DNA of 7,105 nucleotides. Source: Candidatus Eiseniibacteriota bacterium. Lineage in GTDB: Bacteria; Arandabacterota; Arandabacteria; JAGLYR01. The notes beneath the pieces are model-generated. The model saw only the letters and a program-made list of their open reading frames with translations. It searched no databases and was not told where the DNA came from. Position 1 is the first letter of the stretch. Every line of letters starts with the position of its first letter. Positions 188 through 7,105 of this stretch are shown here, piece after piece. The translations under genes and the position numbers were made by a program. Where the stretch lies: contig JAGLYR010000305.1 in NCBI GenBank assembly GCA_023132135.1, positions 1 through 7,105 on the forward strand. The letters run 5' to 3'.

Positions 188-3115
188 ATGAGTACGAGAA
201 TGCCGACCCTGATCATTGCCGCAGCGCTTCTCGCAACAGGCATCATTCCGAACCCGGCCGCGGCCGAAGTCATCCTCAAGAGCTTCGAAGCACCGTATGG
301 GTATCGCTCCTACGGTCTGACCTGGGATGGGCAATACCTGTGGTGCGGGGACGACTACCACGGGGCGATCGCGAAAATTGATACGTCCGACGGTCACATC
401 ATCACCGAGATTCCAGGCGCGTACGAATCCAACCACGGACTCGCGTGGGACGGGACGCACCTCTGGGTTGCCGGCGACTACCACACCGACTACATCTACA
501 AAATCACGACGGCCGGTGCGCGCGTGGATTCGATCCTGAACCCCGGGGGAGACTACTCCGGGGGAATGACCTACGACGGCCGCAACCTGTGGGTGACACG
601 ATACTACCCCAACACGCAGCCGAACCTGTTCAGCGTCGAGCCCACCTCGGGAGCGATCCAGGACACGATTCCTTCCCAGGGTCTTCAGCCGCAAGGCATG
701 GCCTGGGACGGCGAATACCTCTGGAATGTCATGGATGACAACGACGGGGACGAAGAACGAGTCTGGCAGATCCACCCCCTGACGGGCGATACGTTGATGT
801 CCTTCCCTGTCCCCTACACGGGGACTGCGTCGGGTGAATCCCCCCGAGGCCTCGCCTGGGACGGCCAGTACCTTTGGCTGGTTTCTCGATACCCGGGTTC
901 CCCGACTATGAACCATATCTACAAGATCGATCCCTTCGGAGGCGGCACGCCCCAGATCTCTCTCTCCCACTCCGACTACGACTATGGCCACACGATCATC
1001 GGGGATCCCGGGGTCTTCCTTCTCGGGATTTCCAACCTGGGGACCGGCAATCTGGTCGTGGACAGCGTATGTTGCGCGGACCCGGCGTTCTCCTTCCCGG
1101 GTGTCTTCCCCCAGACAGTGGAACCCGACTCGACCTTCTACCTCCCCGTCACCTTCTCCCCCGCAATGTGGGGGCCGGCAGGGACAACACTCACGGTCTA
1201 CAGCAACGATCCGGTGGGCGCTCCGCCGCAGGTAGCTCTGGCTGGATGGGGTGTCTGGCCCGACCAGGAGATCGGCATAAGTGAGAATTCCCACGACTAC
1301 GGCCTAATCCGGGTGAATGCCGACAAGCGTTGGCTGCTGAGGGTCCAGAATGAGGGCGCGCAGCCTCTCATCCTGTATTCGGCCACAACGTCGAGGTCCA
1401 TCTTCAGTGTGCGGAACACACAGTTCCCGGTCCAGATTGACTCGACCGAGGCTTTCGATCTGGACGTCTGGTTCAACCCTCCTTCTCATTCCACGTACGG
1501 CGACACCCTTGAGATCGCGTGCAACGACGCGGATGAGCCCATCCTGCGCGTTCCCCTAGCGGGAACCGGCGACGGCTCAGGACATGGTCCGGGCGCCCTG
1601 TTGTGGAGCTACCAGGTCACGGGTTCCTACTCGGACAAGGTCACCAGCATCCGCGCTCTCCGGGATGTGAACGGTGATGGGTTCGAGGACGTCATCGCAT
1701 GCGCGGAGAACTACCGTACGTACTGCTTCAACGGAAACGGATCGGGAGTGGCCGATACCCTCTGGAGTTTCGACACATCCATCGATCCTTACCGGACCGG
1801 ATCGGTCTACCAGGATCGCGGCATGACGCCCGTCGAGGATCTGGACGGCGACGGGATCCAGGATGTGGTGATCGGCACCGCCGGGGGATCGAGATCGGTC
1901 TTCGCCATCTCCGGGGCCGATGGATCTCAGATCTGGAGCTACGACTCTCACGAGTATGGTGATGGGGGATGGATCTACGAGGTGGCCCCCATCGAGGATG
2001 TAGACGGGGACGGGGTAGAGGACGTCCTGGCAGCGGCCGGAGATGATGGCAGCCTGACAGGACCGAGGCGGGCCTACTGCCTGAGCGGAGCGACAGGGGC
2101 CAAGATCTGGGCGCGGTTCCTGAGTGCCTCGGTCTTCTGCGTACGGGCCATCGACGATGTCAACGGGGACGGGAAGGATGAAGTGGCGGCCGCGACGACG
2201 GACGGTATCCTCTATATCCTTGACGCAGCGGCCGGAACCGTTCTGGACCAGTACGACGCAGGGTCAACCATCTGGACAGTTGCCGCGATCGAGGACATCA
2301 CCGGCGACGGGAAAAAGGACATCGTACTGGGGACCAGCAACGGTTTGGTCCACGCTGTGGATTCATCGGACGGGACAACGGCGTGGCCCGGGACCGTCAA
2401 CGTCGGCAGCATCATCACCGACATCAGCGTCATCCGGGACCAGAACGGCGATAGCGTCGGGGAGATCACGGTGGCCGGCGTGATGTACGATTACTTCGTG
2501 ATCGATGGAGCAGCGGGGAGCATTCTCTGGAGCCGACCCTCCGATCACAAGGCCTTTGCGACCTCCGGCGTGCCCGATCTTTCGGGCAACGGGCTGGAGG
2601 ATGTGATCGGCGGCTCGGGTTACAACGTGAACCGTGTCACCATCATGGAAGGATCCAGCGGCGACACTGTGTGGACCCGCTACACGGCCGGTCCCGTGGA
2701 GACCGTCTCCCCCTTCAAGAACATCGATTGGGATCCATCAGCCGAGGTTCTTGTGGGCACGCGGGCGGGCGAGATTCTCTGCCTCGCAGGCGGCGGGGCG
2801 GTGACGGATGTCGTCGCATCGGAAGATATTGACAGGGCGAGGTCGATTCGCATGCGGATCTATCCCAATCCCTTCAACCCGGTGACGACGATCGCCTTCA
2901 ATGTACCGTTGGAAGGGAAGACGACACTGGCGATTTTCGATGTCCGCGGCCGATGTGTGAAGACGCTCATCGACGGCGCTATCACCGCAGGGGAGCATTC
3001 CGCGGTCTGGGATGGAAGGAACCGGAGCGGAGTTGCATCCGCTCCCGGGGTGTATTTCGCCCGGCTGGAGTCGGCGTCCGAAGTCCTGACCAGGAAGATG
3101 ATTCTGGCGAAGTAG
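188..3115 (+). CDS. Secreted multidomain beta-propeller / Ig-like protein with FlgD-like (type IX-like) C-terminal sorting domain
   Basis: The 975-residue protein begins with a signal peptide (hydrophobic 6-20, likely cleavage after AAA at 26). Residues 43-235 carry five repeats of the form G[LM]xxDGxxLW (at 43, 84, 126, 170, 221), a propeller-like fold. Residues about 255-360 and 362-461 are two tandem Ig-like domains of the choice-of-anchor D/ASPM-SPD-2-Hydin style, each closing with a V/P-x-L-A-G pattern. Residues 471-870 form an FG-GAP/PQQ-like propeller: Ca-binding-type DxDGDG loops start at 493, 551, 604 and 657, with weaker versions at 703, 751, 797 and 845. Residues 885-975 are a FlgD-Ig-like domain with YPNPFNP at 892-898 and a GVYFARL strand, the usual C-terminal sorting signal in FCB bacteria. 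The protein is therefore probably exported and surface-attached or released; the ligand is unknown. It has its own promoter and terminator, so it is probably monocistronic. The architecture is clear, but the biological role is not. Confidence 0.93.
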   Translation: MSTRMPTLIIAAALLATGIIPNPAAAEVILKSFEAPYGYRSYGLTWDGQYLWCGDDYHGAIAKIDTSDGHIITEIPGAYESNHGLAWDGTHLWVAGDYHTDYIYKITTAGARVDSILNPGGDYSGGMTYDGRNLWVTRYYPNTQPNLFSVEPTSGAIQDTIPSQGLQPQGMAWDGEYLWNVMDDNDGDEERVWQIHPLTGDTLMSFPVPYTGTASGESPRGLAWDGQYLWLVSRYPGSPTMNHIYKIDPFGGGTPQISLSHSDYDYGHTIIGDPGVFLLGISNLGTGNLVVDSVCCADPAFSFPGVFPQTVEPDSTFYLPVTFSPAMWGPAGTTLTVYSNDPVGAPPQVALAGWGVWPDQEIGISENSHDYGLIRVNADKRWLLRVQNEGAQPLILYSATTSRSIFSVRNTQFPVQIDSTEAFDLDVWFNPPSHSTYGDTLEIACNDADEPILRVPLAGTGDGSGHGPGALLWSYQVTGSYSDKVTSIRALRDVNGDGFEDVIACAENYRTYCFNGNGSGVADTLWSFDTSIDPYRTGSVYQDRGMTPVEDLDGDGIQDVVIGTAGGSRSVFAISGADGSQIWSYDSHEYGDGGWIYEVAPIEDVDGDGVEDVLAAAGDDGSLTGPRRAYCLSGATGAKIWARFLSASVFCVRAIDDVNGDGKDEVAAATTDGILYILDAAAGTVLDQYDAGSTIWTVAAIEDITGDGKKDIVLGTSNGLVHAVDSSDGTTAWPGTVNVGSIITDISVIRDQNGDSVGEITVAGVMYDYFVIDGAAGSILWSRPSDHKAFATSGVPDLSGNGLEDVIGGSGYNVNRVTIMEGSSGDTVWTRYTAGPVETVSPFKNIDWDPSAEVLVGTRAGEILCLAGGGAVTDVVASEDIDRARSIRMRIYPNPFNPVTTIAFNVPLEGKTTLAIFDVRGRCVKTLIDGAITAGEHSAVWDGRNRSGVASAPGVYFARLESASEVLTRKMILAK

Positions 3116-3198: not shown

Positions 3199-4341
3199 CT
3201 AGAAAGGGCCTCCGACACCATGGCCCGGGCCGTGTCCAAACCTCGGACCATGGTGCGGAAGAAGATTGGTCAGCGCATCGAACATTTCCTGCTGCTCAGA
3301 AGTCAGCAGATCCCGGATCGCAGCAACCGCTTCCTCGTGAATCTCGCCCACTCGATCTTGGGCATCCTCGAATTCAATCTCGCCGCTGCGCACACTCTCT
3401 CTCAACGTCTGGTGTTGCTGCATCGCAGCCTCGGTGATGTCTCTTACCTGCTGAGCCTGCGACTCATCCAGATCCAGGACCCGGGTCAGGAATTCGATCC
3501 GCTGTTCCATCCGCTGTTCGTGACGCGCCTCGCGCCGCTCCATCATCTCGGACTGGCGCTCCGCCCTGTGTTCCTCCATCTGCGCAATCTGCTCGGGCGT
3601 AAGAATGGTCTCCAGCTGCGCCCGGAACGCCTCGCGCATCTCCCGGGCCTGTTCCCGCACGGCCTCGCGATCACAGTCCCCACTCCGGCACTGCTCGCGG
3701 AAATCCCGCATCCGCTCGTGCATGGCCTCGGCTGCTTCCCGGACCTGCGCGCTCTGTTCTTCTGTCAGATTCAGATCACCGGCCATTTGCTCAAACCGCT
3801 CGCCGCAACTCTCCCCCGGACCGAAGTGACGCCCGTGGAATCCTCCGCGCCCGCCGCGCCCGCGATCCCGACCGCCTCTCCCAAGGCCTGCCATTTCGCT
3901 CCGATGGGCCTCATGACGCTCGGCCAGAAACCCCGTGAACTGCACGAACTGCCGGGGTCCCAGGATGTCCGCGCACTCCCCGATAAACGCCAGGAACGGC
4001 CGCTCGTGATCGGGCATGTCCCCCGCTTCACCAAAGCGGGCCCGCTGACCGTGGGCGCCATGACGGCCCCGTTCTCCGCGCTGCGGACGGTCCGCCACTG
4101 CGGCAGCAAACGTCTCGCGAAAGCGCCCCGCGGCGGCCTCCATTGCAACTCGCTGCTCGGGAGTCAGCTCCACGGCCGATTCGATATCGGAGACACTGGG
4201 CATCCACGCCGTGTCGCTGGTCGACTGCGGCGATGTCAGGCCCATCATCCCCGGATCGGTCTCGTTTTCACTACACCCCGCGCCAATCATGAGCAGACCT
4301 GCGATTGCCAGAGCACTCACCAACAACGTTCTTGCCTTCAT
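3199..4341 (-). CDS. Spy/CpxP-like (LTxxQ) lipoprotein with RG-rich linker and His-rich tail
   Basis: The 380-residue protein starts at the ATG at 4341, where AGGAGG sits six bases upstream. A codon six triplets earlier (4359) lies within that site and is unlikely to be used. Residues 1-22 are a lipoprotein signal peptide ending GAG-C23, an atypical lipobox; Ser24 at +2 would favour the outer membrane by the proteobacterial rule. Helical LTxxQ-type motifs occur at 59 (LTPEQ), 192 (LTEEQ), 247 (LTPEQ), 291 (LDESQ) and 346 (LTSEQ), with a degenerate LGPRQ at 127. Spy, CpxP and ZraP carry such motifs and act as periplasmic chaperones or metal-stress sensors, but are usually about 140-170 residues, so this looks like an internally multiplied version. 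Residues 152-176 are rich in Arg/Gly, and 363-375 contain five His, which may bind metal (inference). No two-component system or metal pump is adjacent. The exact function is unproven. Confidence 0.85.
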   Translation of the reverse strand: MKARTLLVSALAIAGLLMIGAGCSENETDPGMMGLTSPQSTSDTAWMPSVSDIESAVELTPEQRVAMEAAAGRFRETFAAAVADRPQRGERGRHGAHGQRARFGEAGDMPDHERPFLAFIGECADILGPRQFVQFTGFLAERHEAHRSEMAGLGRGGRDRGRGGRGGFHGRHFGPGESCGERFEQMAGDLNLTEEQSAQVREAAEAMHERMRDFREQCRSGDCDREAVREQAREMREAFRAQLETILTPEQIAQMEEHRAERQSEMMERREARHEQRMEQRIEFLTRVLDLDESQAQQVRDITEAAMQQHQTLRESVRSGEIEFEDAQDRVGEIHEEAVAAIRDLLTSEQQEMFDALTNLLPHHGPRFGHGPGHGVGGPF

Positions 4342-4346
4342 CTTCG

Positions 4347-4355
4347 TCCTCCTTT
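4347..4355 (-). promoter_or_regulatory. Shine-Dalgarno site fixing the start at 4341
   Basis: On the minus strand this reads AAAGGAGGA, with its AGGAGG core six bases before the ATG at 4341. An in-frame ATG at 4359 overlaps the site itself, so the downstream ATG is chosen. Confidence 0.8.
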
Positions 4356-4389
4356 GCAAGAGCCTGTTTCCTTCCCGCCTTCACTCCTA

Positions 4390-4561: not shown

Positions 4562-5659
4562 TCATGGCGTCTTCTGCCGGTATAGTGCCTTCACTCCTCC
4601 CCAGGTTGTGCGATTGGCTGCGGAACTATCACACCCTGTGTCGCGGGCACCGATCAGTCCGCAGGGATGCCCACTCGGATGGTGGTCGGGTGCACACGGT
4701 GAGTCGGATTGTATCCCCAAATCTCCGTTCTCTGGATCGCAGAAATGGGGATCCGCAGAGATATTGCCGTTGATACCCAGCTGACCGCTGATGCATCCGA
4801 CCCAATCACCGCCCGCGTTCCCGAAAACGTCGCAGCATTCCAGAGTCACCTGGGAGCTTCCGTCTCTGCACAGGATGGCTTCTCCATGGCTGCTGAACGC
4901 TATGATAGTGTTTTGGACAAGAAGGGTATTGTCGGAGGCCAGGTAAATAGCCGCGCCTCCAAGGACTCCGGTATTCGCATAGAAAGTGCAATTCGTAAGC
5001 ACCGACGAGGAGCGGTTAAGTGTCAAGCCCCCACCAGGATCCCAGGACCAGTTGTCGGAGAATACGCACCCTACAAGTGTTGCCGAGGATGAGGAGCAAT
5101 ACATTGCACCTTCGCCGTTGTCGATGAAATTGCAGTTGACAAGAGTGGCCGGGGAGTCGCTGCAGTACAGTCCTCCCGGACCGAAATCTCCGTAGTTGTC
5201 GATGAAACTGCAGTCTATCAATGTGGGGTAAGAATCTAAACAAGCCATTCCGCCGCCATGGTAGGCTTGGTTCGAACGTAGCATGCAACTCTCAAGCGTG
5301 AGTGTGGATGAGAAGCATCCCACGCCACCCCCCCCGTCGTGGAAGCCTCCCATGATTGTGAAACCCTCAACGACCGTCATGATATCCAGGTTCTGACCGA
5401 CGAATACCCTGCCTTGCCACTCTGCATCAATAGTGACGCAGCTGGCGTCTCCGGTATCGCTCTGAAGATGAACCCCGGATTTCAGGACGATATCATGTTC
5501 GTGGTATGTCCCACACGCCACCGACACCGTGTCCCCGGCACTCGCTGAGTCGATACCCGCCTGAACCGTGGGGCATTGCGATGGCACTTGCCAGACGGTG
5601 GCGTAGCTACACCAAGGGATCAGAAGACCGTATGCAGTCAGAATGACCAGTCTCTTCAT
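4562..5659 (-). CDS. Secreted right-handed parallel beta-helix repeat protein
   Basis: The 365-residue protein starts at the ATG at 5659, six bases after GAGG; a TTG four codons upstream is a weaker alternative. Residues 1-20 are a signal peptide (KR, hydrophobic core, likely cleavage after SYA). Residues 30-67 (PTVQAGIDSASAGDTVxV..GTY) are the standard opening of pectate-lyase-like/DUF1565 beta-helix proteins. Successive coils of about 22-26 residues follow the pattern TLxxCxFxxN....GGxxYC, with stacked Cys at 125, 150, 176, 198 and 224 and a matching Asn at 250. Residues 318-343 (SPCAPDHHP...CGLIGARDTGC) are the usual closing segment. The family includes polysaccharide-active enzymes and adhesins, but no catalytic residues can be identified. 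There is no FlgD/YPNPFNP domain; a short tail, TTWGGVKALYR at 351-361, ends the protein. Base composition is visibly less GC-rich than the neighbouring genes, and the gene lies between inverted repeats, so it may have been acquired or moved. Confidence 0.88.
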   Translation of the reverse strand: MKRLVILTAYGLLIPWCSYATVWQVPSQCPTVQAGIDSASAGDTVSVACGTYHEHDIVLKSGVHLQSDTGDASCVTIDAEWQGRVFVGQNLDIMTVVEGFTIMGGFHDGGGGVGCFSSTLTLESCMLRSNQAYHGGGMACLDSYPTLIDCSFIDNYGDFGPGGLYCSDSPATLVNCNFIDNGEGAMYCSSSSATLVGCVFSDNWSWDPGGGLTLNRSSSVLTNCTFYANTGVLGGAAIYLASDNTLLVQNTIIAFSSHGEAILCRDGSSQVTLECCDVFGNAGGDWVGCISGQLGINGNISADPHFCDPENGDLGIQSDSPCAPDHHPSGHPCGLIGARDTGCDSSAANRTTWGGVKALYRQKTP

Positions 5660-5665
5660 GATAAT

Positions 5666-5669
5666 CCTC
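5666..5669 (-). promoter_or_regulatory. Short Shine-Dalgarno site for the beta-helix gene
   Basis: The minus strand reads GAGG six bases before the ATG at 5659. The frame also opens at a TTG at 5671 that overlaps this site, so the ATG is preferred. No convincing promoter was found further upstream, where transposase scraps begin. Confidence 0.6.
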
Positions 5670-5804
5670 AATTCGGCCGAATGCCTCAGAAGCTTGATAA
5701 TCAGCGAGAATCTCCTGCCCTATCTAATCATGACCATCTTCCTCGTTGTGCTGAACGCCGACCCATCGATTCTACGGTCACCCAACCACCAAGGGTACCG
5801 GGAA

Positions 5805-6183: not shown

Positions 6184-6211
6184 TTGACATACAAACGGAT
6201 TTCGTTACAAT
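6184..6211 (+). promoter_or_regulatory. Sigma70-type promoter of the nucleotidyltransferase gene
   Basis: A perfect TTGACA at 6184-6189 is followed after 16 bases by TACAAT at 6206-6211 (five of six matches to TATAAT). Transcription would start near 6218 with a leader of about 65 bases before the GTG at 6283. The -10 box lies inside the first palindrome (6200-6218), so a protein bound there should block RNA polymerase. Confidence 0.65.
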
Positions 6212-6218
6212 AACGAAA
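6200..6218. promoter_or_regulatory. Palindromic operator 1 over the -10 box
   Basis: TTTCGTTA-CAA-TAACGAAA is a perfect palindrome with two 8-base arms and a 3-base centre. It covers the -10 box and the predicted transcription start. Its close copy at 6239-6257 makes chance unlikely. The likely role is autorepression by a dimeric DNA-binding protein; the regulator may be the protein encoded just downstream (inference). Confidence 0.7.
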
Positions 6219-6238: not shown

Positions 6239-6257
6239 TTTCGTTATCATAACGAAC
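6239..6257. promoter_or_regulatory. Palindromic operator 2 in the leader
   Basis: TTTCGTTA-TCA-TAACGAAC repeats operator 1 with one arm mismatch at the last base and a different 3-base centre. It starts 39 bases after operator 1, which is between 3.5 and 4 helical turns. It lies between the predicted transcription start and the gene, so bound protein could act as a roadblock or pair with operator 1. The RNA copy could also form a 7-bp hairpin. Confidence 0.7.
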
Positions 6258-6282
6258 CGATGGGAGGGGTGCGGTCGATTCG

Positions 6283-6870
6283 GTGAGAAGATTGAGCCAA
6301 AAGCGGAACCTTAGGAGGATCGTCAGAGCGCTGGCTTCGGTGGCCGGGGTCAAGGCGGTCTTTCTGTACGGAAGCTTCGCCAGGGGGGATTTCGGTCCGC
6401 GATCGGATCTCGATCTCTTCATCATCACAGACAAGCGCGGGGTGCGCGAGGAAGTCCTGGAGATTCTGGCAGGACTCGATCTGGACAAGTCCATTCAACC
6501 GACCGTCCGCTCAGAAGCCGAGCTCAGGCACACCGACTCCGGTCTTCTCCAGAATATCTTCAAAGAAGGTCTGGTTCTCTACCTCCGTGAGCCGATGGAG
6601 ATTCCCGTTGATTCGCTGCTGAGCCTCAAGCCGTACTCGATCTTCACCTTCGAGCTACCGCGCCTGGATCAGAGGATGAAAGCGAAGTTCAATCGGGACA
6701 TGTACGAGAGAACAAAGGGCAAGTACCAATACAGTGGTCTGCTCGGAGAACTCGGAGGAGAGAAGCTATCCAGAGGAAGTGTGATCGTGCCTTTCGATGG
6801 CAGGGAGAAACTTCTCAGGCTTCTCAAGAAGTACGATGCTGAATTCGACGAGGTCAGGGTCTGGCGGTGA
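6283..6870 (+). CDS. Nucleotidyltransferase-fold (MNT-like) protein with unrecognised C-terminal domain
   Basis: The 195-residue protein uses a GTG start; no other start exists between it and the in-frame stop at 6250. A GGGAGGGG at 6262-6269 is unusually far upstream (13 bases). Residues 24-48 hold the pol-beta/MNT signature: LYGSFARGDFG with Gly30-Ser31, then SDLDLFI with Asp42 and Asp44, the metal-binding pair. The third acidic residue expected on a later strand is not obvious, with IQPTV at 71-75 in that region, so catalysis is uncertain. QNIFKEG at 90-96 is typical of this group. Residues about 115-195 are basic and contain FNRDMYERTKGKYQYSGLLG at 136-155 and RGSVIVP at 164-170; I do not recognise this domain and suggest DNA binding only as inference. 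MNT proteins commonly pair with HEPN toxins as antitoxins that AMPylate them, but no HEPN gene follows. Two matching palindromes in the promoter suggest tight autoregulation. Confidence 0.85.
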   Translation: MRRLSQKRNLRRIVRALASVAGVKAVFLYGSFARGDFGPRSDLDLFIITDKRGVREEVLEILAGLDLDKSIQPTVRSEAELRHTDSGLLQNIFKEGLVLYLREPMEIPVDSLLSLKPYSIFTFELPRLDQRMKAKFNRDMYERTKGKYQYSGLLGELGGEKLSRGSVIVPFDGREKLLRLLKKYDAEFDEVRVWR

Positions 6871-6933: not shown

Positions 6934-6966
6934 CATATGCACGCTGTCCCAGCAAGGTCAAGATGG

Positions 6967-6986
6967 ATCCCCGCGTGCGCGGGGAT
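6967..6986. repeat. REP-like palindrome
   Basis: ATCCCCGCG-TG-CGCGGGGAT is a perfect palindrome with two 9-base arms, set in the context AAGATGG...GACGA. It belongs to the widespread dispersed type seen as GATTCCCGCxxxCGCGGGAATGACG in many bacterial genomes, which in this variant has C/G in place of T/A. Such elements are often multicopy and are sometimes mobilised by RAYT transposases. The region 6871-7105 otherwise holds no gene; it ends in a pyrimidine-rich tract from 7070 on. Confidence 0.65.
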
Positions 6987-7105
6987 GACGATTGGCTTTG
7001 CCCCGCGCCGCTTTCGACGGTGGAGCGGAGCGGAACCGTGGGACAAGAAGACGACCCCATACCAATATGATCTTCCCTTCCTCTTCTTCCTTCCCCCCGG
7101 GTTCC

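Follow-up and report, generated by a model that had tools for sequence, protein, structure and literature searches.

The 195-residue protein encoded near the end of the 7,105-bp stretch of DNA analyzed here (the window) is best explained, with a probability of roughly 0.7, as an orphan antitoxin of the HEPN/MNT type, left without its toxin gene by a loss in this genome, whose C-terminal half, a ferredoxin-like DNA-binding domain, would repress the protein's own promoter. The initial annotation had offered operator binding as one possible role of that half, and we now regard it as the most likely one: an operator pair precedes the gene at every locus with readable upstream DNA, is retained where HEPN is missing, and varies at one base in step with residue 138.

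Domain organization of the MNT protein

The gene and its parts are laid out in the window as follows:

6283..6870 (+): MNT-type nucleotidyltransferase gene with a C-terminal extension (195 aa, GTG start, stop included)
6283..6591 (+): minimal nucleotidyltransferase domain, residues 1-103 (PF18765 and PF01909)
6592..6867 (+): C-terminal ferredoxin-like domain, residues 104-195, proposed to bind the operator (AlphaFold2, Foldseek)
6670..6702 (+): first long helix, residues 130-140 (helix 30-40 of the model), proposed recognition helix (AlphaFold2)
6694-6696 (+): R138 codon, on the first long helix (model; conservation of R138)

The GTG start corresponds in the alignment to the ATG of two close relatives, L019 and L020 (also listed as L004 and L005). 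Pfam matches to Polbeta (PF18765, E 2.5e-12) and NTP_transf_2 (PF01909, E 9.4e-11) cover residues 9-103 only, and both these matches and the alignment show a complete GSx10DxD motif (G30-S31, D42-x-D44). Judged by its sequence, the protein is probably a nucleotide-transferring antitoxin enzyme. It stays below the cut-off of the NCBIfam MntA model NF047752 (33.9 bits vs. 60) and of the Hailong HalB model (24.9 bits vs. 190, with 30 residues aligned).

As initially described, an uncharacterized half of about 92 residues, outside Pfam, follows the intact MNT domain. Residues 104-195 retrieved nothing from Pfam, NCBIfam or PADLOC, which recognized the NTase domain alone in the window protein; residues 101-195 had no Pfam match in the window protein and scattered chance matches only across 18 relatives, and sequence searches of solved structures, Cas2 included, gave no credible match to this half. 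The KYQYSGLLGELGG...RGSVIVP stretch singled out earlier is present in it, whereas the label "basic" applies in a mild sense only (19 Lys/Arg vs. 15 Asp/Glu in residues 101-195, by direct count).

An AlphaFold2 model of residues 101-195, built from 18 sequences, reached a mean pLDDT of 89 (about 95 in the core) with the element order H E H E E H E E H E, a predicted ferredoxin-like order with an inserted hairpin and a short helix. Foldseek placed Cas2 chains first, as weak matches (E 0.024-0.06, TM 0.45-0.54), VIA-align ranked generic ferredoxin-like folds, with Z reaching at most 8.1, and a viral fold library gave no significant match; no solved sequence-specific DNA-binding ferredoxin-like domain was prominent among these weak and generic matches. 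The predicted fold thus departs from the wHTH, AbrB or RHH folds suggested in the initial annotation, which were absent among the fold matches listed, an absence that does not by itself exclude those families.

Distribution of the C-terminal half

A search with the C-terminal half alone, as originally proposed, located it in relatives and placed it in no Pfam family. Among 386 genomes, strong matches turned up in three more, at 42-53% identity, and a distant match in another (L007), and a scan of 84,980 species genomes yielded 17 loci spanning Omnitrophota, Desantisbacteria, Atribacterota, Elusimicrobia, Calescamantes and others. The half is common to 19 close relatives, chiefly from candidate bacterial phyla, in which the NTase domain always precedes it and a conserved (V/I)W(K/R) closes it. 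Nothing related to the C-terminal half was found in the plasmid and phage records searched; in the viral collections, protein patterns picked up no relative, and no tandem operator was seen. Another candidate, L008, was rejected as a spurious match with stops within the matched stretch.

Three distant MNT proteins (L007, L018 and L059), all encoded downstream of a HEPN-like gene, have C-terminal halves related to this one, which suggests a wider family of the same architecture; in L007, identity is 29-31% for MNT and about 20% for HEPN. Defense genes adjoin relatives, as with a type I restriction HsdM gene in L006 (L006:2-1435), and the neighbors in L023 (L023:6699-8334) and L007 (L007:2-1447) resemble a restriction-modification gene and a CRISPR-associated gene, respectively.

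A HEPN-fold partner in relatives and its loss

At 14 of the 19 close relatives (L006, L009, L019-L022, L025-L028, L030, L032, L034 and L035), an intact upstream gene of 118-130 codons overlaps the start of the MNT gene. Its product matched neither PF05168 nor any other Pfam HEPN family, and sequence searches of solved structures gave no credible match. Its predicted structure (pLDDT 85) aligned by VIA-align with AF_0298 (2hsb; Z 15.7), ST0689 (13.7) and TM0613 (12.9), all of them HEPN proteins, and the partner is accordingly predicted to adopt the HEPN fold. Across all 16 partners, RX4HXY is missing and no Rx4-6H is conserved; each of the 16 has HxxxHxxR(H/Q)xY.

No HEPN gene lies beside the window gene, as the initial annotation had noted: none was found among the window ORFs, tblastn detected no HEPN remnant in the window, and a profile of the relatives' partner retrieved nothing from the window's own genome at E<=10, an empty result that is weak on its own. 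About 235 noncoding bases do follow the gene; they run to the end of the contig (C230, of which the 7105-bp window is the whole) and are therefore silent on downstream genes. The partner is missing or broken elsewhere as well. The HEPN gene is deleted in L031, leaving a stub, and in L023 and L024 it is otherwise intact but interrupted by single nonsense codons (TGA at a conserved Trp and TAG at a conserved Gln, respectively), which come from metagenome assemblies and could be assembly errors; TGA serves as an ordinary stop elsewhere in L023. In L029 and L033, contig ends cut the HEPN region. The MNT gene is intact in the window and in all five of these loci.

Because relatives carry a HEPN-fold gene that was lost or broken in some lineages, the solo state of the window gene is derived. 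The idea of a single-gene design in itself is not supported, since in the neighborhood survey an upstream HEPN-fold gene proved routine among close relatives, a finding that the initial annotation had named as speaking against a partnerless protein. On a toxin-antitoxin reading, one would predict that the antitoxin outlasts the toxin, and a HEPN protein that is the costly (toxic) part would be expected to be lost repeatedly while MNT is kept; the HEPN proteins of the relatives are presumably toxic.

Paired operators at the MNT promoter

Upstream of the window gene, the 17-bp palindrome TTCGTTANNNTAACGAA occurs in two copies 39 bp apart, among the following features:

6184..6211 (+): sigma-70-type promoter TTGACA-16-TACAAT (11/12 matches; -10 hexamer inside operator 1)
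6201..6217 (no strand): putative operator 1, TTCGTTACAATAACGAA (perfect 7-bp arms, 3-bp center; conserved in relatives)
6240..6256 (no strand): putative operator 2, TTCGTTATCATAACGAA (39 bp downstream of operator 1; conserved in relatives)
6262..6269 (+): purine-rich GGGAGGGG, likely ribosome-binding site (inferred from sequence)

The pair, the most telling feature of the locus, was overlooked in the initial annotation. Both copies are perfect palindromes, near-identical to each other, where shuffled windows give an expectation of 0.00 palindromes with 2 mismatches allowed, and they are the only two exact sites in the 3.4-Mb genome. Because TTGACA-16-TACAAT ends within operator 1, the center of that palindrome is the -10 box; operator 2 overlaps a second, weak -10-like hexamer, TATCAT. 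With site 1 covering the -10 box and site 2 lying between promoter and start codon, the protein would be expected to repress its own gene.

All 18 loci whose upstream DNA can be read, the window among them, have the pair ahead of the gene or operon, with a spacing of 39-40 bp. Identity to the window is 24-32 of 34 positions in the operators and 10-26 of 57 in the flanks, which have diverged to chance level in relatives. Fourteen carrier genomes contain 16 exact sites, 15 of them at the MNT locus (the reversed pattern gives 2), and the one stray exact site outside it, in G190, is asymmetric. The operators are retained in the window, which has no HEPN gene, in L031, where HEPN is deleted, and in L023 and L024, where it is interrupted by a stop; they track the MNT gene and not HEPN. 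Among the distant homologs, L007 has TTCGTAA-N7-TTACGAA with a second TTCGTAA 40 bp further, and L018 and L059, with their HEPN-like partners, show no clear pair, so the operator may be confined to the closer family and L007.

Joint change of residue 138 and the operator half-site

Four loci (L024, L032, L034 and L035), which form one MNT clade with support 100/100, have TTCCTTA in the first site where the others have TTCGTTA. Two alignment columns are fixed within both operator groups and differ between them: position 7 and R138. Residue 138 is Asn in these four and Arg in 16 of 16 other close sequences and in L007. Being confined to a single clade, the TTCC/R138N change probably reflects one evolutionary event and is suggestive only. 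The HEPN protein of L024 is 85% identical to that of L026, from the TTCG group, and 63-69% identical to those of L032, L034 and L035. Its MNT protein and operator are of the TTCC type, so the operator seems to go with the MNT gene. A tree that keeps the L024 HEPN with its own MNT clade is not rejected (p-AU 0.166), and a HEPN swap in this locus is suggestive only.

The DNA-binding domain of papillomavirus E2 is ferredoxin-like, and the C-terminal half presumably resembles it and the C-terminal ferredoxin-like domain of PaaX. As predicted, its fold would be of the ferredoxin-like kind seen in Cas2, PaaX and E2; no sequence relationship to them was found. E2 binds as a dimer and reads its palindrome with the first helix (PMC11784461); the varying half-site bases of our operators are 10 bp apart, one turn of DNA, which by analogy would fit an E2-like dimer. 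On the orphan-antitoxin reading, a dimer of the C-terminal domain would recognize TTCGTTA-N3-TAACGAA and probably use its first helix and R138 to read the G in either half-site, and two dimers would occupy the two sites 39-40 bp apart, while in relatives the N-terminal NTase would neutralize HEPN, perhaps by nucleotidylation as in HepT/MntA. In this family, a plausible dedicated domain comes together with a defined 17-bp operator and a natural change of specificity. We put at even odds the more specific proposal that the half represents an undescribed ferredoxin-like family of sequence-specific DNA-binding domains with E2-like reading by the first helix, fused to an MNT antitoxin so that one protein would be both enzyme and repressor of a HEPN/MNT module, with a switch between R138-G and N138-C at half-site position 4.

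Alternative readers of the operator

Ferredoxin-like domains often act as dimerization domains, and the NTase domain or the whole MNT dimer might bind the operator, leaving the C-terminal half to dimerization or HEPN docking. Position 7, the other fixed difference between the operator groups, falls in the N-terminal half, so either the NTase or both domains might contact DNA, and SO_3165, an MNT protein in which a DNA-binding domain is not predicted, binds and represses its own promoter (PMC4621449). Against this, the otherwise invariant R138 belongs to the C-terminal domain, where it sits on the first long helix, and retention of the C-terminal half in proteins without HEPN argues that it is not kept for HEPN docking only. 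We consider this division of labor unlikely, though it fares best among the alternatives.

Somewhat less likely again, the C-terminal half would be a Cas2-like module binding a nucleic acid or another substrate, a role also raised in the initial annotation, and the solo protein would be an enzyme in its own right and not an orphan antitoxin. The Cas2 chains among the best Foldseek matches, the C-terminal substrate-binding domains of many Pol-beta family NTases and the complete NTase motif of the solo window protein all agree with such a module, which nevertheless explains neither the conserved operator pair nor its joint change with R138; moreover, the known C-terminal substrate-binding domains of the superfamily are HEPN-like, not ferredoxin-like (PMC3710099).

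The HEPN protein, or the HEPN-MNT complex only, could instead read the operator, given that the complex is the stronger repressor in many toxin-antitoxin modules; we think this improbable, as the operators persist where HEPN is absent (the window, L031) or interrupted (L023, L024), and L024 pairs a TTCG-type HEPN with a TTCC operator. Operator binding by the encoded MNT protein is something we infer, which leaves room for another regulator, encoded at some other place in each genome, but this is very improbable when the sites are nearly confined to the MNT locus, their carriers belong to unrelated phyla and the type of operator is correlated with the sequence of the MNT protein.

Comparison with known systems

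Read as an orphan antitoxin, the window protein is close in design to the type VII HepT/MntA system (SO_3166/SO_3165; PMC4621449, PMC7641770): both have a GSx10DxD MNT domain, relatives of the window protein have a co-directional, overlapping HEPN-fold gene, and palindromes lie near the -10 box, with the antitoxin binding its own promoter in the characterized case, SO_3165, the closest precedent for the self-repression proposed for the window protein. In contrast to HepT/MntA, the window protein adds a ferredoxin-like C-terminal domain of ~92 residues, the relatives' partner is without RX4HXY, and the window is without HEPN. The gene order in relatives is HEPN then MNT, whereas MNT usually comes first (PMC3710099). 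In Class II HEPN/MNT pairs (PF05168/PF01909), RX4H is absent and a conserved tyrosine is kept (PMC7641770), as in the relatives' partner, whose structure is closest to AF_0298, ST0689 and TM0613; unlike that class, the partner lies outside PF05168 and the MNT protein has a C-terminal domain and a two-operator promoter. Together, the dedicated domain, the reversed gene order and the paired operators set the family apart as a variant of the HEPN/MNT pairs described in the open-access literature.

The wHTH-MNT fusions (PADLOC PDC-M05A) likewise combine MNT with a putative DNA-binding domain in one HEPN-paired protein, but their extra domain is N-terminal and wHTH-like, whereas that of the window protein is C-terminal and ferredoxin-like. 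The AbiEi/AbiEii type IV system (PMC3985639, PMC7319586) is also an autoregulated toxin-antitoxin operon with an NTase, in which the antitoxin binds promoter inverted repeats; there, however, the NTase acts as the toxin and DNA binding falls to a separate antitoxin, whereas the window protein unites the NTase and the proposed DNA-binding part. The window's own genome has a second nucleotidyltransferase system on another contig (L002:1180-2239, G000:C79), where a gene for a wHTH-MNT fusion (214 aa) lies directly ahead of one for a HEPN protein (150 aa; PF05168 E 1.5e-4), and a wHTH protein resembling AbiEi adjoins this pair.

Additional features of the window

Near the contig end, an imperfect inverted repeat (6952-7001; 24-nt arms, 71% complementary) has the look of a dispersed repeat and is not followed by a T run. 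The rest of the window encodes a long secreted protein (188-3115, +) that combines beta-propeller-like and FG-GAP-like DxNGDG repeats with the sorting-type motif YPNPFNPVTTI at its C terminus, a 386-aa protein (3199-4359, -) that is lipoprotein-like and Spy/CpxP-like and has a high content of Met, Arg, Glu and Gln, and a 369-aa secreted protein with parallel-beta-helix-like repeats (4562-5671, -).
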